The notes below the pieces were generated by a model. It made no database searches and had not been told where the DNA came from. It saw nothing but the letters and a program-made list of their open reading frames with translations. This document shows, in pieces, positions 5,272-53,240 of a stretch of DNA of 64,000 nucleotides. How positions within the stretch are numbered: position 1 is the first letter of the stretch; the number at the start of each line of letters is the position of its first letter. The translations under genes were made by a program, and so were the position numbers. Source of the stretch: Clostridium sp. (GTDB taxonomy: Bacteria; Bacillota; Clostridia; Clostridiales; Clostridiaceae); NCBI RefSeq assembly GCF_022482905.1, contig NZ_JAKVOI010000001.1, forward strand, positions 993,958 to 1,057,957, written 5' to 3'.

Positions 5272-6417
5272 ATGATTAGTAGTATACTTGTTATTTCATC
5301 TAATTTTACCGGACATGGTCATAAAAGTATAGAGGAGTCACTAAATGAAAAATTTTCGAGTATCAAAGATGTGAAAATTTACAGTGTAGATGGATTTTTA
5401 CTTGGAGGAACTGCTTTGCTTGACATGGCCAAAGCATATGGCCCTATAACTAGGAAATCAGAAGGACTATGGAAAATCATATGGGATATATCTTGTGTCA
5501 GACCATATCTTATTAACGATATTATAGAATCCATGATAAAAGACGGATTTTTGGATTTATTGGAAAGGACAAAACCGGATTTGATTTTAACACTGCATCC
5601 AAATTTCAATGGATCTGTTCTAAATATACTGAAAAAGTATCATATCACGATACCATTTGTTACCCTTATTGCGGATCTTGTCAGTATATCTCCCCTGTGG
5701 GCGGACCCAAGGGCTGATTATATTATAAGTCCTACAGATGAGGCAAAGAATAGATGCATGGATTTTGGAGTTCCTGAGGAAAAAATAAAGGTTTTGGGTT
5801 TTCCTGTACGTTCGAGATTTTATGATCGCAGGGATAAATGCAGCAATAATATTAATTCCAAAAAAGATGAACCGTTTAGATGTATAATAATGAGCGGCGG
5901 TGAGGGCGTCGGAAATATGAAAAAGATAGCCCAGATTTTGCTTGATAATTTTAATTGTACTGTAAAAATTATAGCAGGCAGAAATACATCCTTGAAAAAC
6001 AAGCTGGAGAAATCCCTTGTAAAAAAATATGGAGACAAGGTTAAAGTATATGGTTTTACAGAGAATATACAGGATTTGATGGAATGTTCTGATATTGCAA
6101 TCACAAGAGGAAGTCCAAATGTAATAATGGAGGCAATAGCATGTAATACGCCTTTGATAATAACAGGTGCACTGCCCGGCCAGGAGGAGGAAAATCCACA
6201 ATTTGTTGAAAAATACAATCTCGGTATAATATGTGAAGATATAAAAAATATGAGATCCATAGTAGATAATCTAATCAGCAATAATTCTCAAGAGCTGGAT
6301 AGAATCAGATACTTTCAGAGAATTTATGCCAATCCAGATGTAGCAGAGAACATTGTAGATTTCCTTTTGAATATAAAAATGAATCCTGAGGAAATTGGAT
6401 TAAAAGTTTTTATTTAG
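5272..6417 (+). CDS. MGDG-synthase/UgtP-like glycosyltransferase (GT28)
   Basis: 381 residues. The N-terminal half has the MGDG_synth signature (SSNFTGHGHKSI at about residues 9-20, a GxGH acceptor loop). The C-terminal half has the GT28 nucleotide-sugar site (MSGGEGVGNM, then TRGSPNVIMEA and a P-G-QE-EN segment). Family members transfer glucose or galactose from UDP-sugars to diacylglycerol to make membrane glycolipids and lipoteichoic acid anchors. GGAAGG precedes the ATG. It is monocistronic, with a strong terminator just after it. The enzyme class is well supported; sugar and lipid specificity are not. Confidence 0.8.
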   Translation: MISSILVISSNFTGHGHKSIEESLNEKFSSIKDVKIYSVDGFLLGGTALLDMAKAYGPITRKSEGLWKIIWDISCVRPYLINDIIESMIKDGFLDLLERTKPDLILTLHPNFNGSVLNILKKYHITIPFVTLIADLVSISPLWADPRADYIISPTDEAKNRCMDFGVPEEKIKVLGFPVRSRFYDRRDKCSNNINSKKDEPFRCIIMSGGEGVGNMKKIAQILLDNFNCTVKIIAGRNTSLKNKLEKSLVKKYGDKVKVYGFTENIQDLMECSDIAITRGSPNVIMEAIACNTPLIITGALPGQEEENPQFVEKYNLGIICEDIKNMRSIVDNLISNNSQELDRIRYFQRIYANPDVAENIVDFLLNIKMNPEEIGLKVFI

Positions 6418-31768: not shown

Positions 31769-34510
31769 ATGAAAAAAATAAATCTGATTTTAGAATTAAG
31801 GGAGATCCATAAAGTATTATTTGAATTCTATAGAAAAACATCTGATTGTAAGTATGGTAATGATTTTTATGATAGGGCCGCGTATTCTCTGCTGAATAAA
31901 ATATTATTTGTACGGATATGTGAGGATAAGGGCTTTATGAAAAATATGGAAGTTAATACAGTCATCAATTCTACACTGGCGGAATTGATTGAACTTGCTT
32001 TTAACTGTAAGGAAGGATCCTGCGGCAATATAATTTTATATAGTGAAGAAGAGTATGAATTTCTCAATCCCGTATGTGGAGATCCATGTTTTGATTATTT
32101 CAATGATATTTGTAATGATATTATGGGAAGGTTGAATTCAGACAGATTTAACTTTAAAAATACAGATGAAAATATTCTTGGAGATGTTTATCAGGAGTTC
32201 ATGGATAAAAATTCCCGCAGAGCTGCAGGACAGTTTTATACACCTGGGTTTATTATAGAGTATATGCTGAAGAAGACAGTTGGTGAAGCAGATGTTCTGG
32301 AAAATCCTTTTGTAAATTTAGCTGATATTTCCTGTGGTTCAGGACATTTTTTAATTAGGGCCTATGACATTCTGAAAAAAAAATTTTTAGACAATCTTGA
32401 AAATTTAAGAGAAAGGTATGGTAAAAAAATTTATGTTATCAGGGGAAATAGATCGGAAAAACGACTACAGGGAAGTCAATACTGGGTAGAGAAAAATGTC
32501 CATTATCATATATTGAAATATTGTATTTATGGTGCTGATATAGATAGTTTTGCAGTACAATTGACAAGGATAAATCTGCTTTTGAAGGATTCTGACAACT
32601 TTACGGATAAACTGAATATAGTTCAGTGTGACAGTCTCGTAAGGTGGGAAACGGTAAAAAAGCGAATTTTGCCGTTGTTTGATTTCTGGAATACCAGGTT
32701 TGATTATGTAGTTGGAAATCCTCCTTATGTGGGGCATAAGCAACTGGATATAAAATATAAGAAATGGTTATTTAACAATTATGGAGAAGTCTTTAAAGAC
32801 AAGTCAGATTTATCCTTTTGCTTTTTTTGCAGGATAAGAGAAGTTTTGAATATAAAAGGAAAAGCTGCTGTAATCACATCGAGATACTTTATGGAAAGTC
32901 CTACTGGAAAAAATTTAAGACAGTATTTGAAAAATAAGAGCATTATTTTTGAGATAGTAGATTTTTATGGAGCAGAAATTTTTGAAGGAGCGGGAGTTGC
33001 AGCTTCCATATATATTTTTGGAAATGATAGAAGTAAAAATAGCAAAGAGAATAAAATACAGGTAAACAAATTGCTGAAAGATACTTTTGTATTTGATGAT
33101 CAGGCTGACCTTGAAAATACGATGAAAACTGATCTGTTTGAAAGTTTCCATATAAGTCAGCACATTCTGGGGGATGAACGATGGATTTTAATACCGGAAA
33201 ATCAATATGAAATATATAGAAAGATTATAGATGGTACAAGTTACAGACTTAGAGATATTGCTGATAGTTTTCAGGGAGTGATAACGGGATGCGATAGAGC
33301 ATTTGTAGTATCCAATGAAAATATTGCCAGGAATAAAATTGAAGAAGAATTGATAAAAAAGTGGATAAAAAACAGCAATATAAAAAAATATAGAGTATTG
33401 AACAGTGATTTGAATCTAATTTACTCAGATTTGATAGAGAATGAACAAGATTATAGTAACAGTCTGAAATTTATCGAAAATTATGTTCATAAATTAAAAA
33501 ATAGGAGGGAATGTAGAAAAGGAGTTAGAAAATGGTACCAGCTTCAATGGGGAAGAGATCATAGACTATTTGAACAGAAGAAAATTGTCTTTTCATATAA
33601 GGGAAAAAACAATAAATTTGCTCTGGATTCAGACAATTCGTATTGTAGTGCAGATGTGTATTCATTGGTACTTAAGAATGAATTTAAAAATAAAGCTTCA
33701 CTTGAGTACTTGACTGGAGTCCTGAATTCAAGTATATATGAATTCTATTTTAAGCTGTTTGCAAAAAAAATGGGTAAAGGTATATATGACTACTATCCAA
33801 ATTCAGTTATGGATTTAAGAGTGACATTGAACTCTAACATAGAGAAGTCGGTAAGTGAAAAAGTAGAACAAATATTGAAAAATTTCTCTTTTATGAAAGA
33901 TGCAAATATTGATGAAATATTGAAAGAGGATAATTTAGCAACAGGGTACTTCAAGATAAAATTTAATAATATAAGACTAAAAAAAAGAATTTACTTTTTG
34001 GAAAAAGAAATTGACAAAGTACTTGGGGACTTTTTTTGCCTAAATGACGAAGATTTTGATACAATAAAGAAAGTACTTGATTTACCGGAATCGGAAGGCG
34101 AAGTATTTTTGTCGGAACAGGAGAGTATCTATTACAAGTATATTCATATGAATGGAGGATATAGAAAAGCGGATTTGGGAGAGCTGATGAACATATTACT
34201 TATATATATAAGACAAAAATCCATTAAAATTTTGAAGGAAAATAAAAGGCCTATTTCACTTTGGGACATAAAAGAAAGATTTGAAAAAGAATTATTTGGA
34301 TTTGAAAAGATAATTGATGTATTTAAAATTACTGATATTAAAACATCATCAGAGGAAGTTATAAAAAAATCTCTGAATAATGATTCATATACATGGAATG
34401 CCTATATGAAAGATAAAGAAAAGCATAAAACCAGAAAAACTTTTGTAAAATACTGTAAAAATAATTATTATGGCCTATCGGAATGGGGGAAGATCAATGA
34501 TTATAAATAA
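31769..34510 (+). CDS. Eco57I/type IIG-like N6-adenine DNA methyltransferase, no visible nuclease
   Basis: 913 residues. A helical N-terminal region (residues 1-150; FVRICEDKGF and GDVYQEFMDKNSRRAAGQFYTP) precedes SAM motif I (LADISCGSGHF, about 188-198), the ADIDSFAVQLTR acidic-loop region and the catalytic NPPY of N6-adenine enzymes (VVGNPPYVG). A TaqI-like specificity region is at about 470-700 (LEYLTGVLNSSIYEFYF). The last 170 residues are unassigned. No PD-(D/E)XK motif is visible at the N-terminus and no restriction gene is adjacent. It could be a solitary methyltransferase or a type IIG enzyme with a divergent nuclease. GAGGGG is only one base from the ATG, so the start is uncertain. 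Confidence 0.82.
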   Translation: MKKINLILELREIHKVLFEFYRKTSDCKYGNDFYDRAAYSLLNKILFVRICEDKGFMKNMEVNTVINSTLAELIELAFNCKEGSCGNIILYSEEEYEFLNPVCGDPCFDYFNDICNDIMGRLNSDRFNFKNTDENILGDVYQEFMDKNSRRAAGQFYTPGFIIEYMLKKTVGEADVLENPFVNLADISCGSGHFLIRAYDILKKKFLDNLENLRERYGKKIYVIRGNRSEKRLQGSQYWVEKNVHYHILKYCIYGADIDSFAVQLTRINLLLKDSDNFTDKLNIVQCDSLVRWETVKKRILPLFDFWNTRFDYVVGNPPYVGHKQLDIKYKKWLFNNYGEVFKDKSDLSFCFFCRIREVLNIKGKAAVITSRYFMESPTGKNLRQYLKNKSIIFEIVDFYGAEIFEGAGVAASIYIFGNDRSKNSKENKIQVNKLLKDTFVFDDQADLENTMKTDLFESFHISQHILGDERWILIPENQYEIYRKIIDGTSYRLRDIADSFQGVITGCDRAFVVSNENIARNKIEEELIKKWIKNSNIKKYRVLNSDLNLIYSDLIENEQDYSNSLKFIENYVHKLKNRRECRKGVRKWYQLQWGRDHRLFEQKKIVFSYKGKNNKFALDSDNSYCSADVYSLVLKNEFKNKASLEYLTGVLNSSIYEFYFKLFAKKMGKGIYDYYPNSVMDLRVTLNSNIEKSVSEKVEQILKNFSFMKDANIDEILKEDNLATGYFKIKFNNIRLKKRIYFLEKEIDKVLGDFFCLNDEDFDTIKKVLDLPESEGEVFLSEQESIYYKYIHMNGGYRKADLGELMNILLIYIRQKSIKILKENKRPISLWDIKERFEKELFGFEKIIDVFKITDIKTSSEEVIKKSLNNDSYTWNAYMKDKEKHKTRKTFVKYCKNNYYGLSEWGKINDYK

Positions 34511-34553: not shown

Positions 34554-35501
34554 ATGGATAGTCTCATATACAGTTTGAATGCCACAATGCCTGTATTTTT
34601 CGTTATTGTAATTGGATATATATTGAGATGTATAGGAATGCTCAATGAAGGTTTTATAGAGGCAGCCAACAAATTCAACTTTAAAGTTACCCTTCCAATA
34701 CTTTTGTGTACTGATATAGGCAAGACGAACATAGCTGAAAATTTTGATGGAAGATACATATTGTTTTGTGCAGTAGTTACATCTATTTGTTTCTGGTCCA
34801 TATGGTTTTTTACTAAAAAATTCATGAAAGATAAGAATATGACAGGAGCTTTTGTACAGGCTTCATTTCGTGGTAGTGCGTCAATTATGGGGATTGCATT
34901 TATCCAGAATATTTATGGAAATTCAGGAATGGCACCTATGATGATGATAGGAGCTGTACCTCTTTACAATATATATTCTGTTATAGTACTTACTTTTGAA
35001 GGCAGGGATATGGAGGGCAAAAATGTCAACATAAAAAGAACCTGCATAAATATTGTTACGAATCCAATTATTATTGGAATATTTCTTGGAATGGTTGTAT
35101 CATTGCTGAAGATTCATTTACCCATGATGATGGACAAAACTTTGCAGAACTTTGCGGCTATGGCATCACCTCTGGCGCTAGTTACAATTGGAGCCGGATT
35201 TGAGGGAAGAAAAGCGCTTGCAAAAATAAAGCCAACCATGATAGCTTCAGTTATAAAACTTGTTGTTCAGGCTGCTATATTCTTGCCCGTGGCAGCATAC
35301 TTTGGATTTAGAGATCAGAAGCTTGTTGCTTTGATTATTATGCTCGCTTCTCCGACTACAGTCAGCTGTTATATTATGGCAAAAAGCATGGATAATGATG
35401 ATATACTGACTTCCAGTATAATTGTCGTTACTACACTTCTTTCTGCATTTACTCTTACTTTCTGGATCTTCTTGATGAAGATTATGGGACTTGTTGTATA
35501 G
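34554..35501 (+). CDS. AEC-family (auxin efflux carrier-like) transporter
   Basis: 315 residues with about ten hydrophobic helices in two five-helix halves. Typical AEC features include the early VIVIGYILRCIGML and the late LASPTTVSCYIMAK, a P-T-T helix break. Bacterial AEC proteins include malate, malonate and other carboxylate carriers. It lies just upstream of a GlcD-type dehydrogenase, so a 2-hydroxyacid or other organic-acid substrate is plausible (inference). The ribosome site is weak. The T-box leader begins after its stop and controls only the next gene. Confidence 0.82.
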   Translation: MDSLIYSLNATMPVFFVIVIGYILRCIGMLNEGFIEAANKFNFKVTLPILLCTDIGKTNIAENFDGRYILFCAVVTSICFWSIWFFTKKFMKDKNMTGAFVQASFRGSASIMGIAFIQNIYGNSGMAPMMMIGAVPLYNIYSVIVLTFEGRDMEGKNVNIKRTCINIVTNPIIIGIFLGMVVSLLKIHLPMMMDKTLQNFAAMASPLALVTIGAGFEGRKALAKIKPTMIASVIKLVVQAAIFLPVAAYFGFRDQKLVALIIMLASPTTVSCYIMAKSMDNDDILTSSIIVVTTLLSAFTLTFWIFLMKIMGLVV

Positions 35502-35519: not shown

Positions 35520-35548
35520 TTGACATATTGTTAAAATTATAGTAAACT
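35520..35548 (+). promoter_or_regulatory. Promoter of the T-box leader
   Basis: TTGACA (35520-35525), a 17-base spacer and TAAACT (35543-35548), placed just before the T-box Stem I sequence. Confidence 0.65.
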
Positions 35549-35560
35549 TTTTTACAAAAG

Positions 35561-35780
35561 ATAAATGCTGTGACGGGAATAAGTAGGTATATTTTTGATT
35601 GAAAAGAGAATGGGAAATGTGGTGAGAGCCCATATTATATATTGAAATTCATCCTTGAGCTGTAAGCTGAAACAGTAGTAGGCAGATCCGGTTTTAAGAC
35701 CGTTATGTAAGATCAAGTAAATAATTGGGTGGTACCGCGACAGATCATGTTTCGCCCCGGCAGACATGGTCTGTTTTTTT
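35561..35780 (+). promoter_or_regulatory. T-box riboswitch leader with terminator
   Basis: Hallmarks in order: a Stem I base with GGGAATAAGTA (AGTA loop-E at 35582-35585), AGAGA at 35605, the GGTGAGAG distal loop at 35621-35628, GAA (35644-35646) followed by ATTCATCC closing Stem I, and the T-box GGGTGGTACCGCG (35727-35739). The terminator pairs 35740-35750 with 35764-35774 and ends in a T7 tract. TGGT in the T-box predicts a tRNA with discriminator A. The specifier lies just before GAA in TATATATT: ATT (Ile, 35641-35643) or TAT (Tyr, 35638-35640 or 35640-35642) are the readings, and I cannot fix the register. Uncharged tRNA would permit transcription of the downstream FAD dehydrogenase. Confidence 0.93.
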
Positions 35781-35813
35781 GTATTTATTGTAAATAAAAG
35801 GGAGAGATATTAG

Positions 35814-37193
35814 TTGGAAAATGAAGTTGCAGAAAATCTAAAAAATATTTCAGGTAGTGACTGGGTAATAAATGATCTATCACAGATGAGGAGCTATCTT
35901 TATGATGAAACTGAACCGCTTATACGTCCGCAGGCATCAGAAGATTGTGTAGTAGTAAAACCTGGTTCACCTGAAGAGATATCTAAAATACTGAAATATG
36001 CAAATGATAAATTGATACCTGTAATTGCAAGAGGGGGAGGTACGGGAGTCGTAGGAGGTTCCATACCAACCGGGCAGAGTATAATATTGTCTCTGGAGAG
36101 ATTGAACAAACTTGTGGAACTCGATGAGAAAAATTTAATGATAACTATTGAAGCTGGTGCTACTCTGTCAGATTTGCTTGAAATATTGAATAAACAGAGC
36201 AAACTGTTTTTCCCGATACATCCTGGAGATGAAGGGGCACAGATCGGAGGCATGGTTGTAACAAATGCGGGAGGATCGGGAGCTGTAAAACATGGCATTA
36301 TGAGAAATCATGTAAAAGCCCTGGAAGTAGTACTGCCTACAGGAGAAATAGTTACTCTTGGAGGAAAATTACTTAAAAACAATATGGGATATGATCTAAT
36401 GAATATGATTATAGGAAGTGAGGGAACACTCGGGGTTGTTACAAAAGTAACACTGAGGCTGTATGCAAAGAGCAGACATACGGGAACACTTATAGTAGCC
36501 TTTGACAGCAGAAGAAATGCAGCAGATGTAGTGCCTGAAATACTCCAGGAGGGAATTACACCGAGAGCAATAGAGTATATGGACAGATCTGTGACTGAAA
36601 AATCTGCTGAAGATCTTGATATGATATGGCAGTTAAAAAAAGGATCTGTAGATCTTATGTTTATAATCGATGCAGCTGATGAAGATGAACTTTACAACAA
36701 CAGTGAAAAGATCGTTGAAATATGTGAAAAACATAATGCTCTTGACAGTGTTATAGCAGAAACTGCCAGGGAGCAGAGAGATATTCTTGAAATAAGGAGT
36801 AACGTATACGCTCCGTTTAGAGATAAAGTATCGGATGGATTGGACATGGCAGTTCCACCTTCATCTGTTCCGGATTTTTTAGATGACCTCACGAGACTTG
36901 CTGAAAAGTATAATACGTCTATTCCATCTGTAGGACATATAGCAGATGGTAATGTCCATAATTTCATTTTAAGTGACAATGGGAAACTGCCATCTTATTA
37001 TGAAGAGCTTAAAGAGGAAATGTATAAAACTGCGATAAAATACGGTGGTACTATAACTGCAGAACATGGTACAGGAAAAACAAAGAAGAAACATATGTAT
37101 TTACAATTTTCACCAAGAGAAATAGATATTATGAGGGCAGTCAAAAAGGCATTTGATCCAAATGAAATTTTAAATCCAGGTACTATAATATAA
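35814..37193 (+). CDS. GlcD-type FAD-linked 2-hydroxyacid dehydrogenase
   Basis: 459 residues. The FAD-binding-4 domain is in the N-terminal half (RGGGTGVVGGSIP, then HPGDEGAQIGGMVVTNAGGSGAVKHG split by usual contacts, and IIGSEGTLGVVT). The FAD-oxidase C-terminal domain carries HIADGNVHNF and the ITAEHGTGKTKK signature. The family oxidises D-lactate, glycolate or other 2-hydroxyacids; clostridial and acetogen relatives may work with electron-transfer flavoprotein, but no etf genes are here. TTG start at 35814 with GGGAGAG upstream. It is the only gene behind the T-box. Confidence 0.88.
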   Translation: MENEVAENLKNISGSDWVINDLSQMRSYLYDETEPLIRPQASEDCVVVKPGSPEEISKILKYANDKLIPVIARGGGTGVVGGSIPTGQSIILSLERLNKLVELDEKNLMITIEAGATLSDLLEILNKQSKLFFPIHPGDEGAQIGGMVVTNAGGSGAVKHGIMRNHVKALEVVLPTGEIVTLGGKLLKNNMGYDLMNMIIGSEGTLGVVTKVTLRLYAKSRHTGTLIVAFDSRRNAADVVPEILQEGITPRAIEYMDRSVTEKSAEDLDMIWQLKKGSVDLMFIIDAADEDELYNNSEKIVEICEKHNALDSVIAETAREQRDILEIRSNVYAPFRDKVSDGLDMAVPPSSVPDFLDDLTRLAEKYNTSIPSVGHIADGNVHNFILSDNGKLPSYYEELKEEMYKTAIKYGGTITAEHGTGKTKKKHMYLQFSPREIDIMRAVKKAFDPNEILNPGTII

Positions 37194-37661: not shown

Positions 37662-37800
37662 ATGTGTAAATAGAAAAATAGTATTATTATGCTTTTTATT
37701 ATATTATTAAAAAATATATTATAAAACTCTAAATTAATCAAAACTATGGTCGATAATTACTATGGAGAAAATATATGTAATTTATAAGGAGAAAATAGTT

Positions 37801-39093
37801 ATGGATAATGTAAAAGAACAAAGTACTAGAGAAAATATTTTTAATATTCAAACATATAGGCTGAGAAATATTGTTAAGTATGCTTATGAGAATGTTCCAT
37901 TTTACAGACAGAAATTTGATGCAATAGGATTGCTGCCGGAAGACATAAAATCACTTGAAGATGTCAAGTTCATTCCATTTACAACAAAACAGGATTTAAG
38001 AAATAACTATCCATATGGAATGTTTGCTGCACCTATGGATAAAATTGTAAGGATACATGCTTCCTCCGGAACAACAGGGACACAAACTATAGTTGGATAT
38101 ACGAAAAAGGACATTGCAATGTGGTCTGGTATAATAGCCGATACCCTGAGAAGATATGGGGTAACAAAAAATGATATAGTCCAAATTTCATATGGATATG
38201 GATTGTTTACTGGAGGACTTGGAATCCACTATGGTGTAGAAAATCTTGGAGCTTCCGTTATACCAATGTCTGGTGGCAATACTGAAAAACAGATATTGAC
38301 CATGAAAAATTTTGGCGTAACAGTACTTGCATGCACTCCATCTTATGCACTGCATATATATGACACAATGGTAAAAATGGGAATATCACCTGAAGATCTC
38401 AATCTTAGAATCGGTGTTTTTGGAGCAGAACCATGGTCTGATGAGATGAGAAATGATATTGAAAAAAAGTTTAAATTTAAAGCATATGATATATACGGAT
38501 TAAGTGAAGTTATGGGACCTGGAGTGGCTGGTGAATGCTGTTTGCAAAATGGGCTCCATATAAATGAGGAATATTTTCTACCTGAAGTAATTGACCCGGC
38601 AACTTTAAGAAATACTGAGCACGGTGAAGAAGGAGAACTTGTTTTTACAACATTGCTAAAAGAAGGACTTCCTATTTTAAGATATAGGACAAGGGATATA
38701 TCCTCCATTGAATACGATGAATGTGAATGTGGATGCCCGTTTGTCAGGATGAAAAGGATATGCGGAAGAAGTGATGATATGATGATTATAAGAGGAGTTA
38801 ATGTATATCCTATACAAATTGAAAAAGTGCTTTTGAGTTTCAAACAACTCTCACCTAATTATATGTTGACTATAGATAGAAAAAACAATCTTGATCAGCT
38901 GATAATTTCAATAGAGCTTCGTGAAAGTCTACAAGCTTATGGAAGAGAAAATTTATCTCAGTTGCATAAAAATATCAATACAAAGCTGCATAATATGCTG
39001 CAGATATACTGCAATATAGACTTGCTCAATCCTGGAACTATAACTAGAAGTGAAGGAAAAGCTAAAAGGATATTTGATAGAAGGGCAATATAA
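37801..39093 (+). CDS. Phenylacetate-CoA ligase-like adenylate-forming enzyme
   Basis: 430 residues, the size of PaaK proteins. The AMP-binding P-loop is SSGTTGTQTIVGYT (about 80-93). SGGNTEKQ, YGLSEVMGPGVAGEC and RTRDIS are family segments, and the C-terminal AMP-ligase domain has GRSDDMMIIRGVNVYP. It activates an aryl acid such as phenylacetate or indoleacetate to its CoA thioester. AAGGAG lies 9 bases before the ATG at 37801. It converges on the KAS III-like gene. The acid substrate is not visible. Confidence 0.9.
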   Translation: MDNVKEQSTRENIFNIQTYRLRNIVKYAYENVPFYRQKFDAIGLLPEDIKSLEDVKFIPFTTKQDLRNNYPYGMFAAPMDKIVRIHASSGTTGTQTIVGYTKKDIAMWSGIIADTLRRYGVTKNDIVQISYGYGLFTGGLGIHYGVENLGASVIPMSGGNTEKQILTMKNFGVTVLACTPSYALHIYDTMVKMGISPEDLNLRIGVFGAEPWSDEMRNDIEKKFKFKAYDIYGLSEVMGPGVAGECCLQNGLHINEEYFLPEVIDPATLRNTEHGEEGELVFTTLLKEGLPILRYRTRDISSIEYDECECGCPFVRMKRICGRSDDMMIIRGVNVYPIQIEKVLLSFKQLSPNYMLTIDRKNNLDQLIISIELRESLQAYGRENLSQLHKNINTKLHNMLQIYCNIDLLNPGTITRSEGKAKRIFDRRAI

Positions 39094-49044: not shown

Positions 49045-49080
49045 AATAGATAAATTGCAAATAATTAAATATTTAATTTC

Positions 49081-49233
49081 TTATCAAGAGAGGCGGAGGG
49101 ACTGGCCCTATGATGCCCGGCAACCTGGATGTATATTATATATGTTCAATGGTGCCAATTCCAGCAGGAATACCTGAAAGATGAGAAGCAAAGGAACATC
49201 AAACTTCCTATGGTTTCTCCATAGGGAGTTTTT
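49081..49233 (+). promoter_or_regulatory. SAM-I (S-box) riboswitch with terminator
   Basis: All core blocks are present: TTATCAAGAGAGGCGGAGGG at the 5' end, ACTGGCCCTATGATGCCCGG then CAACC, GGTGCCAATTCC (49151-49162) and GATGAGAAG (49180-49188). A terminator follows: AACTTCCTATGG (49202-49213) with CCATAGGGAGTT (49219-49230, one G-U pair) and a T tract. When S-adenosylmethionine is plentiful the terminator forms and the downstream sulfate/thiosulfate importer is shut off. Confidence 0.96.
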
Positions 49234-49433: not shown

Positions 49434-50489
49434 ATGAAAAAATTTAAGTTTGGTATTTTGATTTCACTAATAAGTATTTTTATATTGTCATCTTTTACAG
49501 GATGCGGCAGTAAAAGCGATACAAGCAGTGACAAGTCAGCAGAAAGTAAAAAACCAGTTGAACTGTTGAACGTTTCTTATGATCCTACAAGAGAATTGTA
49601 TGAAGAATATAATAAAGCTTTTGCAAAGTACTGGAAAGAAAAAAGTGGTCAGGATGTTACTATAAAACAGTCGCATGGAGGTTCAGGAAAACAGGGAAGA
49701 TCAATTATAGAGGGACAGGAAGCTGATGTTGCAACGCTTGCCCTTGCATATGATATAGATGCAATTCAGAAGGCAGATTTAATTAATGAAGGCTGGCAGA
49801 AAAAATTTAAGGATAATAGCTCGCCTTATACGTCAACCATAGTATTTCTTGTTAGAAAAGGAAATCCTAAAAATATAAAGGACTGGGATGATCTCACAAA
49901 AAAAGGTGTATCAATAGTAACTCCAAATCCTAAAACATCAGGCGGTGCCAGATGGAATTATCTTGCAGCCTGGGGATATGCTTTAAAGAAAAACAATAAT
50001 GATCAGGCGAAAGCAAAAGAATTTGTGAAAAATTTATATGCAAATGTTGCAGTGCTGGATTCAGGTGCAAGAGGTGCAACCACTACCTTTGTTGAAAGAG
50101 GAGTTGGAGATGTACTCATAGCCTGGGAAAATGAGGCTTTTCTATCAGTGAAAGAATTGGGAAAAGATAAGTTCGATATAGTTGTGCCTTCAGTAAGTAT
50201 ACTTGCAGAACCACCTGTAGCAGTAGTTGACAAGGTAGTGGATAAAAAAGGTACGAGAAAAGTTGCAGAAGCATATTTGAATTACCTGTACTCTAAAGAA
50301 GGACAGGAAATAGCTGCAAAGAACTACTACCGCCCGAGAGACAAAGAAATTGCCAAAAAATATGAAAGCCAATTTCCGAAGATAAATTTGTTTACAATAG
50401 ATGATGTATTTGGAGGATGGGCTAAGGCACAGAAAACCCATTTTGATGATGGTGGAACTTTTGATCAGATATATCAACCTAAAAAGTAA
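49434..50489 (+). CDS. Sulfate/thiosulfate-binding lipoprotein
   Basis: 351 residues. A lipoprotein signal ends in lipobox SSFTGC (about residues 18-23). The mature protein belongs to the Sbp/CysP family: [43 protein letters not shown] and [14 protein letters not shown] are the oxyanion-binding and family signatures. It delivers sulfate or thiosulfate to the CysTWA transporter. AGGGGG precedes the ATG. It is first in a four-gene S-box-controlled operon. Sulfate versus thiosulfate cannot be separated by eye. Confidence 0.93.
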
Positions 50490-50521
50490 TAAGTTAGGTA
50501 AAAATAGGGAGGATACATGAG

Positions 50522-51340
50522 ATGGCTAGAAAGACAAGAGTTATTCCGGGATTTAATATATCTATGGGATTAGCTGTTTTATATTTAAGTTTGATAGTTC
50601 TAATTCCACTCAGTACAATATTGATTCAGACGTCAAAAATGGGATTTGATGAATTCCTGAAAGTTGTTACAAATCCAAGGGTAGTTGCATCGTATAAAAT
50701 AAGCTTTGGCTGTGCATTTATAGCAGCTTCCATAAATACCATATTTGGGTTGATTATTTCCTGGGTACTGGTAAGATATGATTTCCACTTCAAGAGATTT
50801 ATTGATGGATGTATAGACCTGCCATTTGCTCTCCCTACAGCTGTTGCAGGTATTTCACTTACGACACTTTACTCAAAAAACGGATGGATTGGTTCTTTTC
50901 TTTCCAAGTTTGGCATAGAGGGATCATTTTCTACATTTGGAATCACTGTGGCATTGGTATTTATAGGTATACCATTTGTTGTGCGTACAGTTCAGCCTGT
51001 TCTTGAAGATCTGGATTCAAGTATAGAAGAAGCAGCTTCGACTCTTGGTGCATCCAGGATACAGATATTTTTCAAAGTAATACTTCCACAACTCCTTGCT
51101 CCACTTTTAACGGGATTTTCACTTGCTTTTGCAAGAGGTATAGGAGAATATGGTTCTGTTGTATTTATAGCAGGAAACAAGCCGATGAAGACAGAGATAG
51201 CTCCACTTTTAATAATGACCAAGCTTGAGCAGTTTGATTATTCGGGAGCTACAGCTATAGCCCTGATTATGCTTGTATTTTCATTTTTCATGCTGTTTGT
51301 TATAAATTTAATTCAATGGAAATCCAATAAGTATGCATAG
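50522..51340 (+). CDS. cysT: Sulfate ABC transporter permease CysT
   Basis: 272 residues with six helices. The inner-membrane coupling motif EEAASTLGASRIQIFFKVILP (EAA loop) is followed by a GFSLAFARGIGEYGSVVFI segment characteristic of CysT/CysU. It pairs with CysW to form the channel. GGGAGG precedes the ATG. Confidence 0.93.
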   Translation: MARKTRVIPGFNISMGLAVLYLSLIVLIPLSTILIQTSKMGFDEFLKVVTNPRVVASYKISFGCAFIAASINTIFGLIISWVLVRYDFHFKRFIDGCIDLPFALPTAVAGISLTTLYSKNGWIGSFLSKFGIEGSFSTFGITVALVFIGIPFVVRTVQPVLEDLDSSIEEAASTLGASRIQIFFKVILPQLLAPLLTGFSLAFARGIGEYGSVVFIAGNKPMKTEIAPLLIMTKLEQFDYSGATAIALIMLVFSFFMLFVINLIQWKSNKYA

Positions 51341-51351
51341 GAGTGATAAAG

Positions 51352-52179
51352 TTGAAAAATAGAAATTATTCTGGATCTGGTGCTGTTAAATTTCTACTCA
51401 TAGCAATAACAATAATATTTTTATTTATAATGCTTGGAATGCCATTGATACTCATACTGATGGAGGCCTTTAAAAAAGGTAAAGATGCATATATTATGGC
51501 TATTACAGAGGAAAATACTGTTTCAGCCATAAAACTTACTTTAATAGCTTCAGGTATTGCAGTTCTTTTAAATACTGTATTTGGTATAATAATGGCTTTT
51601 GCCGTATCAAAATTTAAATTCAAAGGCAGAAATTTTTTAATAACATTGATAGATCTTCCATTTGCTATTTCACCGGTTATAGCAGGACTTATATATGTGC
51701 TGACTTTTGGAAGAGGAGGTTTATTTTACAACTTTTTATTCCAGAATGATATTAAGATAATTTTCGCACTGCCGGGGATAATTTTGGCTACGATATTTGT
51801 TACATTCCCCTTTGTATCCAGGGAGATAATACCACTGATGATTACACAGGGAACTGATGAGGAAGAAGCAGCAGCCTCCATGGGGGCAAATTTATGGACA
51901 ATATTCAGAAAAATAACGCTGCCAAATATAAAATGGGGACTGCTTTATGGAATAGTGCTGTGCAGTGCCCGTGCAATAGGTGAATTTGGAGCCGTTTCAG
52001 TAGTTTCCGGACATATAAGGGGTGAGACGAATACTCTTCCGCTTCATGTGGAAATATTGTATAATGAATATCAGTTTTCGGCATCTTTTGCAGTATCATC
52101 TATTTTGGTGTTTATAGCCATAATTATATTGATTCTGAGAAATATTATTGAGTGGAAAGCAAAAAAAGAGGTGAAATAG
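51352..52179 (+). CDS. cysW: Sulfate ABC transporter permease CysW
   Basis: 275 residues with six helices, EAA loop EEEAAASMGANLWTIFRKITLP, and the ARAIGEFGAVSVVSGHIRGETNTLPLHVEI region typical of CysW (quoted in pieces: ARAIGEFGAVS, GETNTLPLHVE). TTG at 51352 is taken as the start because AGGAG (51339-51343) lies 8 bases before it; GTG at 51343 overlaps that site. Confidence 0.92.
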   Translation: MKNRNYSGSGAVKFLLIAITIIFLFIMLGMPLILILMEAFKKGKDAYIMAITEENTVSAIKLTLIASGIAVLLNTVFGIIMAFAVSKFKFKGRNFLITLIDLPFAISPVIAGLIYVLTFGRGGLFYNFLFQNDIKIIFALPGIILATIFVTFPFVSREIIPLMITQGTDEEEAAASMGANLWTIFRKITLPNIKWGLLYGIVLCSARAIGEFGAVSVVSGHIRGETNTLPLHVEILYNEYQFSASFAVSSILVFIAIIILILRNIIEWKAKKEVK

Positions 52180-52181
52180 AG

Positions 52182-53240
52182 ATGTATGTTCAAGTTAAAA
52201 ATCTTAACAAGAAATTTGGAAGTTATGACGCTTCAAAAAATATATCATTCGAAATAGACAAAGGTAAATTAGTAGCCCTTCTTGGACCCAGTGGAAGTGG
52301 AAAAACTACGATACTTCGCATAATTGCAGGACTTGAGACTGCCGACAGTGGTGAAGTTTATATCGACGGAAAACTGGTAAACAATATACCTTCAGGTAAA
52401 AGGGGAATAGGATTTGTTTTTCAGAACTATGCCCTTTTCAGGAATATGACCGTTTATCAGAATATAGCATTTGGACTTTCCATAAAAAAAGCCGACAAAA
52501 AATATATAAAGCAGAGAGTCAATGAATTAATAGAACTTATAGGGCTTAAAGGACTGGAAAACAGATATCCAAGTCAGTTGTCCGGTGGACAGAAACAGAG
52601 AGTTGCTTTTGCAAGGGCACTTGCTCCAAAGCCACAGCTTCTTCTTCTGGATGAGCCTTTTGCAGCTATTGATGCTAAAGTAAGAAAAGAACTTAGGACA
52701 TGGCTCAGACAGATGATACACAAACTTGAAATAACAAGTATTTTTGTAACTCATGATCAGGAAGAGGCAGTAGAGGTAGCAGATGAAATTATTGTAACCA
52801 ATTTAGGAAGTATTGAACAAATTGGAAAAGCGGTTGACATATACAAAAATCCAAACACGACCTTTGTAGCAAAATTTATTGGTCAATCAAATGTCATTGA
52901 GAGTATTAATGAATTCAGGGCATTCAAGGATATTAAAGAGGGCAATGAATTTGTTATAAGACCTGAATTTGTTGAAATAGGTAAAAAAGGAGAAATACAA
53001 TGTGAACTTGCCTGTGATAAAGGTGTTGTTACTGATATTTCTTTTGCAGGTTCCAATTGGATTGTAAGTGTTAAATTAGGAAATGTAGAAATTACAGGAT
53101 TCCGTTCACTTGAAAAAGAGAGTTTAAATGTAGGCGAGGAAGTATTGGTACTTGTATATAGATTGTATGTATTTAAAGGTAATAAAGTAGAAATTATTGA
53201 AAATAAATTGAAAACCGATACTACATCGGCATATATATAA
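52182..53240 (+). CDS. cysA: Sulfate ABC transporter ATPase CysA
   Basis: 352 residues. Walker A GPSGSGKTT, signature LSGGQKQR, Walker B LLLLDEPF, H-loop VTHDQEEA, then a C-terminal TOBE-like regulatory domain from about 240. It drives sulfate/thiosulfate import. GAGGTG precedes the ATG at 52182; the upstream in-frame ATG lies in cysW. Last gene before the terminator. No sulfate-reduction genes follow. Confidence 0.95.
   Translation: MYVQVKNLNKKFGSYDASKNISFEIDKGKLVALLGPSGSGKTTILRIIAGLETADSGEVYIDGKLVNNIPSGKRGIGFVFQNYALFRNMTVYQNIAFGLSIKKADKKYIKQRVNELIELIGLKGLENRYPSQLSGGQKQRVAFARALAPKPQLLLLDEPFAAIDAKVRKELRTWLRQMIHKLEITSIFVTHDQEEAVEVADEIIVTNLGSIEQIGKAVDIYKNPNTTFVAKFIGQSNVIESINEFRAFKDIKEGNEFVIRPEFVEIGKKGEIQCELACDKGVVTDISFAGSNWIVSVKLGNVEITGFRSLEKESLNVGEEVLVLVYRLYVFKGNKVEIIENKLKTDTTSAYI

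Follow-up and report, generated by a model that had tools for sequence, protein, structure and literature searches.

A UUC (phenylalanine) T-box riboswitch before a GlcD-like 2-hydroxyacid dehydrogenase in Clostridium sp.: a candidate route for recovering an amino acid from its hydroxyacid

Introduction

T-box riboswitches sense uncharged tRNA, and their known targets, as PMC2494555 and PMC3766115 describe them, are mostly genes for aminoacyl-tRNA synthetases, amino acid biosynthesis and transport. What, then, is a T-box doing ahead of a FAD-linked 2-hydroxyacid dehydrogenase? The question is raised by a locus of Clostridium sp. (contig NZ_JAKVOI010000001.1), lying in the 64,000-nt stretch of DNA that was analysed and is here called the window. 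The literature searched contained no description of a GlcD-type dehydrogenase under T-box control, and the listings of TBDB and RegPrecise, which stand outside that search, may hold these leaders as entries. To which tRNA would the switch respond? On which hydroxyacid would the enzyme act? And is the arrangement peculiar to this locus, or do relatives share it?

The leader and its gene

The elements of the locus, all on the forward strand of the window, are the following.

35520..35548, + strand: promoter-like sequence TTGACA-17-TAAACT, 10 of 12 matches, 3' of the AEC carrier gene and 5' of the T-box
35561..35762, + strand: T-box leader (RF00230), from Stem I to antiterminator, by covariance-model match
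35648..35650, + strand: specifier UUC (Phe), from sister alignment columns, a register scan and the same triplet in the pheS leader L009
35730..35733, + strand: T-box sequence UGGU, which can pair with the ACCA of tRNA-Phe (discriminator A), read from the sequence
35739..35780, + strand: intrinsic terminator, a 16-pair stem with a U-run, from folding against shuffles
35800..35806, + strand: ribosome-binding site GGGAGAG, read from the sequence
35814..37193, + strand: GlcD/LDHD-like FAD-linked 2-hydroxyacid dehydrogenase of 459 aa, with Gly342 in the inferred side-chain pocket, from domains and alignment

The T-box before glcD is confirmed. The Rfam covariance model matches 35561-35762 (+) over its full length (model 1-219) with 94.8 bits and an E-value of 1.7e-19, narrowly above the gathering cut-off of 93 bits, and accepts the element that the initial annotation had put forward, at the coordinate given there. 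By score it is 28th among the 34 T-boxes of the genome at E <= 1e-3, of which 29 exceed the cut-off. The alternative structure that a T-box needs is also present: the terminator stretch 35735-35785 folds to -19.6 kcal/mol (z -4.15), with 0 of 200 shuffles as good, and a longer stretch, 35715-35785, gives z -2.57 with 1 of 200. Stem I finds its support in the covariance model and in the alignment of sister leaders, since the isolated piece (35597-35660) folds no better than shuffles (z 0.14, 104/200); in the 16-row alignment of glcD-linked T-boxes, which counts L079 twice because it carries two tandem T-boxes, both CTC, 13 of the 40 consensus pairs retain pairing through two-sided changes.

The T-box precedes a single gene, which has a TTG start. 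Its product has the two domains of the GlcD/LDHD type, PF01565 (FAD_binding_4, 127.5 bits) and PF02913 (FAD-oxidase_C, 176.4 bits), so that a complete T-box with terminator before a single FAD-linked 2-hydroxyacid dehydrogenase, as first described, is borne out. The same description placed an AEC carrier just upstream. It is indeed there (PF03547, ending at 35501), but as both the T-box and the promoter-like site lie 3' of it, the carrier was rejected as a gene controlled by the switch. The promoter-like match is weak by itself, because such sites are about equally common in shuffles (11 found, 9.6 expected); sequences resembling it also precede several of the sister T-boxes.

The specifier

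Which amino acid does the leader spell? The window specifier loop reads TATTGAAATTCATCCTTGAGC; that of L007, the leader before this genome's acetolactate synthase gene, reads TACTGAAACTCATCCTTGAGC. From GAA to AGC, a span of 17 nt, the window has GAAATTCATCCTTGAGC and L007 has GAAACTCATCCTTGAGC; the single difference, C to T, falls inside the triplet (CUC in L007, UUC in the window). The pheS leader of this genome (L009) reads GAAG-TTC-ATTCTGGAG, with a triplet identical to that of the window, and by our own reading these two are the only TTC leaders among the genome's 34 T-boxes. In the specifier columns of the 16 glcD-linked T-boxes, CTC (Leu) occurs nine times, ATC (Ile) six times and TTC once, in the window. 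The two tRNA-Phe genes found in the genome have anticodon GAA, which matches the TTC specifier, and discriminator A, ending in GGCCACCA; their ACCA is complementary to the UGGU that fills the UGGN position.

A register scan of the window leader returned TTC as its sole candidate. The scan is imperfect, as its check on 11 synthetase leaders named by NCBIfam illustrates (ileS among them at 603 bits, a partial frame below the cut-off of 621.4): the cognate codon came first in seven (val, ile, phe, ser, ala, pro, thr) and second in argS, and for leuS, glyS and metS the scan settled on a triplet shifted by one base to the 3' side of the cognate one. The shift was the same for L023 (Leu) and L026 (Trp), whose specifiers were read by eye.

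The isoleucine (ATT) and tyrosine (TAT) specifiers proposed at the outset are out of register and were abandoned: the register taken from the Leu leaders, the Leu and Ile sisters and the pheS leader reads UUC, and by the TBDB usage figures (PMC7778990) UUC is the specifier in 99% of T-boxes for Phe, AUU in 1% of those for Ile and UAU in 1% of those for Tyr. Spacing alone does not exclude AUU, because in the leuS leader the specifier lies one base further from GAG than it does in the window.

The leader thus has the full model match, UUC specifier, UGGU and terminator of a pheS-type T-box, in a genome with tRNA-Phe(GAA) of discriminator A. It differs in preceding a 2-hydroxyacid dehydrogenase gene, not one for a synthetase, biosynthesis or an amino acid transporter, and in the company that its sequence keeps. 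Ranked by alignment score among the genome's 33 other T-boxes, the seven nearest to it (71-77% identity) are seven of the eight CTC (Leu) leaders; the eighth, that of leuS, ranks 25th, and the pheS leader twelfth. With Leu leaders so nearly identical to it, the window leader seems to belong to a single leucine group (with biosynthesis, an MFS carrier and a glcD paralog) but now to spell phenylalanine, the specifier having presumably changed from C to U. The genus set comprised 13 genomes, one per species, without a second strain of the window species.

A family of T-box-linked dehydrogenases

The arrangement is not confined to the window. Among the candidates scored (at most 8 per genome) in 206 genomes of the same bacterial family, 37 GlcD loci in 19 genomes reach E <= 1e-130, and 15 of them, in 11 genomes, have a T-box over the Rfam cut-off: 8 Leu, 6 Ile and 1 Phe. 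Eleven of the 15 are etfB-etfA-glcD operons. A CTC T-box precedes a lone glcD at three loci (L074-L076) and an etfB-etfA-glcD operon at five (L078-L082), including the window genome's own paralog at C1:2193077-2194444; an ATC T-box precedes etfB-etfA-glcD at six (L084-L089). The window locus has no adjacent etfB or etfA. C. ljungdahlii, C. ragsdalei and C. luticellarii are among the named relatives that carry such genes, species of the kind that matters for gas and acid fermentation.

At the other 22 loci, no T-box was found by motif search and Rfam in the upstream sequence fetched, of which there was little for some of them (L101, L104 and L105 lie on contigs of ~8 kb). One of the 22, L083, keeps the promoter and the antiterminator/terminator before glcD and has lost Stem I. 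This natural Stem-I deletion (G019 C1:293850-305226, oriented ~5790-5960) gives no Rfam T-box at E <= 0.1. A class-wide sample of 391 genomes, with up to 4 candidates scored per genome, added one further relative from another bacterial family, in an etfBA-glcD-like operon without a T-box whose two upstream genes were recognised by eye.

In a tree of 43 rows (paired support values), the window copy groups with L083 (96/91). The sister of this pair, at a support of only 85/76, is a clade of 16 rows (98/98) into which the other 14 T-box copies all fall, and the next branch out consists of eight lone copies without a T-box (98/96). The specifier classes largely track the clades: the six Ile copies form one (100/100), as do the three lone Leu copies (100/100), and the Leu copies with etf require three changes on the tree.

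Is this simply the lactate dehydrogenase of these bacteria? The lactate-type class is set off by a long branch of 2.3 changes per column and is 37% identical. In G003 it stands in the order GntR, lactate permease, lactate racemase, etfB, etfA, dehydrogenase, hemerythrin, an order also described for a syngas-induced lactate operon of C. ljungdahlii (PMC5640608). The long branch and this operon indicate that the T-box family is a different branch from that lactate dehydrogenase.

Several loci of the family have additional features. The lone glcD of L071, L073 and L077 follows a gene of the malate/L-lactate dehydrogenase family (typed as PF02615 in L071, the others belonging to the same cluster), a pair that could combine the oxidation of L- and D-hydroxyacids. 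In L101 and L102, a gene of 386 aa between etfA and glcD has no Pfam match, and the L101 copy has no NCBIfam match either. In the window genome itself (G000), a TAC (Tyr) T-box (L005, C1:255794-256010:-) precedes a sodium:solute symporter gene, and a Tyr T-box/symporter unit of this type lies just 3' of glcD, on the opposite strand, in L074-L076 and L078-L080. Near the leucine-type etfBA-glcD operon of the same genome (L131, C1:2184600-2194500) are genes for tRNA-Leu(GAG) and tRNA-Leu(CAA), ~8 kb apart.

The enzyme and its side-chain pocket

What kind of dehydrogenase is it? The window protein has the domain order of GlcD, and its top NCBIfam match is TIGR00387 (glcD), at 323 bits far under the equivalog cut-off of 567.9; a glycolate oxidase identity was rejected on this score. 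No GlcE or GlcF, the partners in GlcDEF, is found among the seven window genes typed by domain or NCBIfam. Among solved structures the best match is LctD (PDB 7qh2), from the ferredoxin/NAD lactate dehydrogenase, and the etfB-etfA-glcD operons of most T-box loci resemble LctBCD, the electron-bifurcating enzyme to which LctD belongs; the absence of etf genes beside the window copy, and a lactate class whose G003 operon has GntR, racemase and permease genes, are the differences.

A guide to the substrate comes from mouse LDHD (PDB 8jdc and others), a mitochondrial enzyme. Its structural account (PMC10589216) assigns Arg347, His398, His405, Glu442 and His443 to subsite A and Val101, Trp351, Ser365 and Ile407 to a hydrophobic subsite B, and reports that it oxidises D-2-hydroxyisocaproate and D-2-hydroxy-3-methylvalerate, with D-phenyllactate used 4.3-fold less efficiently than D-lactate. 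By alignment, the window protein has all five residues of subsite A (R328, H375, H382, E417, H418), as expected of a GlcD/LDHD member, and in this conservation, as in the broad use of hydrophobic D-2-hydroxyacids by LDHD, we see a likeness. The remaining pocket differs, with Tyr332, Gly342, Phe384 and Val79 aligned to Trp351, Ser365, Ile407 and Val101 of the mouse enzyme. Gly342, the counterpart of Ser365 (Lys401 in human D2HGDH), would on this alignment line the side-chain pocket.

It is at this column that the specifier classes part. The residue is Gly in the window copy (Phe), Ala in 8/8 Leu copies and Ile in 6/6 Ile copies. An earlier pocket comparison covered 12 positions from the LDHD paper; the later scan of all 459 columns found 10 in which the Leu and Ile classes are each fixed for a residue of their own, and column 342 is the sole one that separates all three in this way, where the Phe/Gly pairing comes from one locus, the only Phe member found. 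From Ile through Leu to Phe, the amino acid that the leader specifies has a side chain of longer reach, and the pocket residue becomes smaller. Gly342 may nonetheless be ancestral and not selected for phenyllactate, because L083 and 8/9 of the lone copies without a T-box share it; etf-linked copies without a T-box on near branches have Ala, Gly, Ile or Ser.

Proposed role and alternatives

Taken together, these data make it probable, in our judgement, that the T-box and the GlcD-type enzyme form a tRNA-Phe-controlled unit for recovering a 2-oxoacid from an aromatic D-2-hydroxyacid, most likely D-phenyllactate, within a clostridial family specified by Phe, Leu or Ile. Under phenylalanine shortage, uncharged tRNA-Phe (anticodon GAA) would pair with the leader at two places, the UUC specifier and UGGU, so that the antiterminator would form and glcD would be transcribed. 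Oxidation of D-phenyllactate, the likeliest substrate, would then give phenylpyruvate, from which a transaminase would make phenylalanine. Control by starvation is easiest to understand for an enzyme that replenishes the amino acid in short supply, and the expected direction is therefore oxidation of the hydroxyacid to the oxoacid; making the hydroxyacid would, we infer, waste precursor. The electrons would probably pass to an Etf made elsewhere, for example one encoded by the etfBA genes in the operon of the genome's leucine-type glcD paralog. Salvage of this kind would be a supplement to biosynthesis and not essential, since the genome encodes prephenate dehydratase. The idea of recovering a 2-oxoacid from a 2-hydroxyacid, present in the initial annotation, agrees with the best of these data, with phenylalanine in the place of isoleucine or tyrosine. 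Against it count the single Phe locus, specifier classes that largely track clades, the modest rank of the T-box in its genome, the weaker support for joining the window and L083 to the T-box clade, and the lack of an etf gene beside glcD.

The window locus would then be one branch of a family in which specifier and pocket differ together: Ile/Ile, Leu/Ala and Phe/Gly. LctBCD couples lactate oxidation to ferredoxin and NAD by electron confurcation and, by analogy, the etf genes co-transcribed in most sisters suggest the same for them. The wider proposal, to which we give an even chance, is that of a mostly flavin-confurcating family of T-box-controlled D-2-hydroxyacid dehydrogenases in which the specifier codon and one pocket residue have diversified together, so that each tRNA, when starved, would turn on an enzyme that regenerates the cognate amino acid from the corresponding hydroxyacid. 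If true, oxoacid recovery from hydroxyacids would join the functions controlled by T-boxes, and the leader would supply a substrate label for GlcD-type enzymes, a group in which substrate prediction is difficult. The match between specifier and pocket is a directly testable rule.

Could the leader instead be a leucine T-box that has drifted? In that case the switch would still answer tRNA-Leu(GAG) through a G-U pair, or would have stopped responding, and the enzyme would handle leucine-derived 2-hydroxyisocaproate as its sisters would. In keeping with this, each of the seven closest T-boxes is a Leu one, the genome has a tRNA-Leu(GAG) gene and the T-box score is lowish (28th/34); sister L083, having lost Stem I, shows that T-box decay does occur in this family. 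We nevertheless hold this to be unlikely, though the strongest of the alternatives. UUC is a normal specifier for Phe, and strict preference for Watson-Crick pairing is a tendency of T-boxes, as TBDB describes them (PMC7778990); the terminator is intact; the pocket residue differs from that of 8/8 Leu copies; and in B. subtilis one specifier change was enough to redirect the tyrS T-box (Grundy et al., via PMC2494555).

A general D-lactate or glycolate dehydrogenase, tied by its T-box merely to general amino acid stress, is improbable. LctD as best solved relative and TIGR00387 as top NCBIfam match speak for it, but the latter score is below cut-off, the G003 lactate operon uses the other, long-branch class at 37% identity, and the specifiers read in the T-box copies are Leu, Ile or Phe only. 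We can hardly credit an AUU (Ile) specifier with recovery of 2-hydroxy-3-methylvalerate, for although ATT lies one base 5' of TTC, alternative frames do occur according to TBDB (PMC7778990) and leuS in the same genome has the longer spacing, 6/6 Ile sisters have ATC in the columns where the window has TTC, AUU is rare among Ile specifiers in the same source, and the pocket has Gly at the position where the Ile class has Ile.

Other features of the window and genome

Downstream of glcD, a phenylacetate-CoA-ligase-like gene (37762-39093) was considered as a phenylalanine-linked neighbour and set aside: it scores 557.5 bits, under the PaaK cut-off of 646.3, and a short gene, CspA-like by eye, lies between the two. 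At 31769-34510 is a large DNA methylase of the Eco57I/N6 type that has a TaqI-like specificity domain and a distant likeness to BREX PglX. Besides the T-box, a single RNA family reaches cut-off in the 64,000 nt, a SAM riboswitch (49078-49187), upstream of an ABC transporter (49434-53240) comprising an SBP_bac_11 binding protein, two permeases and an ATPase.

Elsewhere, the window genome (G000) has another unusual T-box target: an ATC (Ile) T-box (L018, C1:2341837-2342068:-) precedes a glycerol-dehydrogenase-like gene that scores 207.6 bits against a cut-off of 336. Tandem CTC (Leu) T-boxes (L023/L027, C1:1909712-1910150:-) precede an MFS carrier gene nearest to the aromatic-acid/H+ symport group, under its cut-off (209.8 against 418.55 bits); its product is possibly a carrier of a leucine-related acid.
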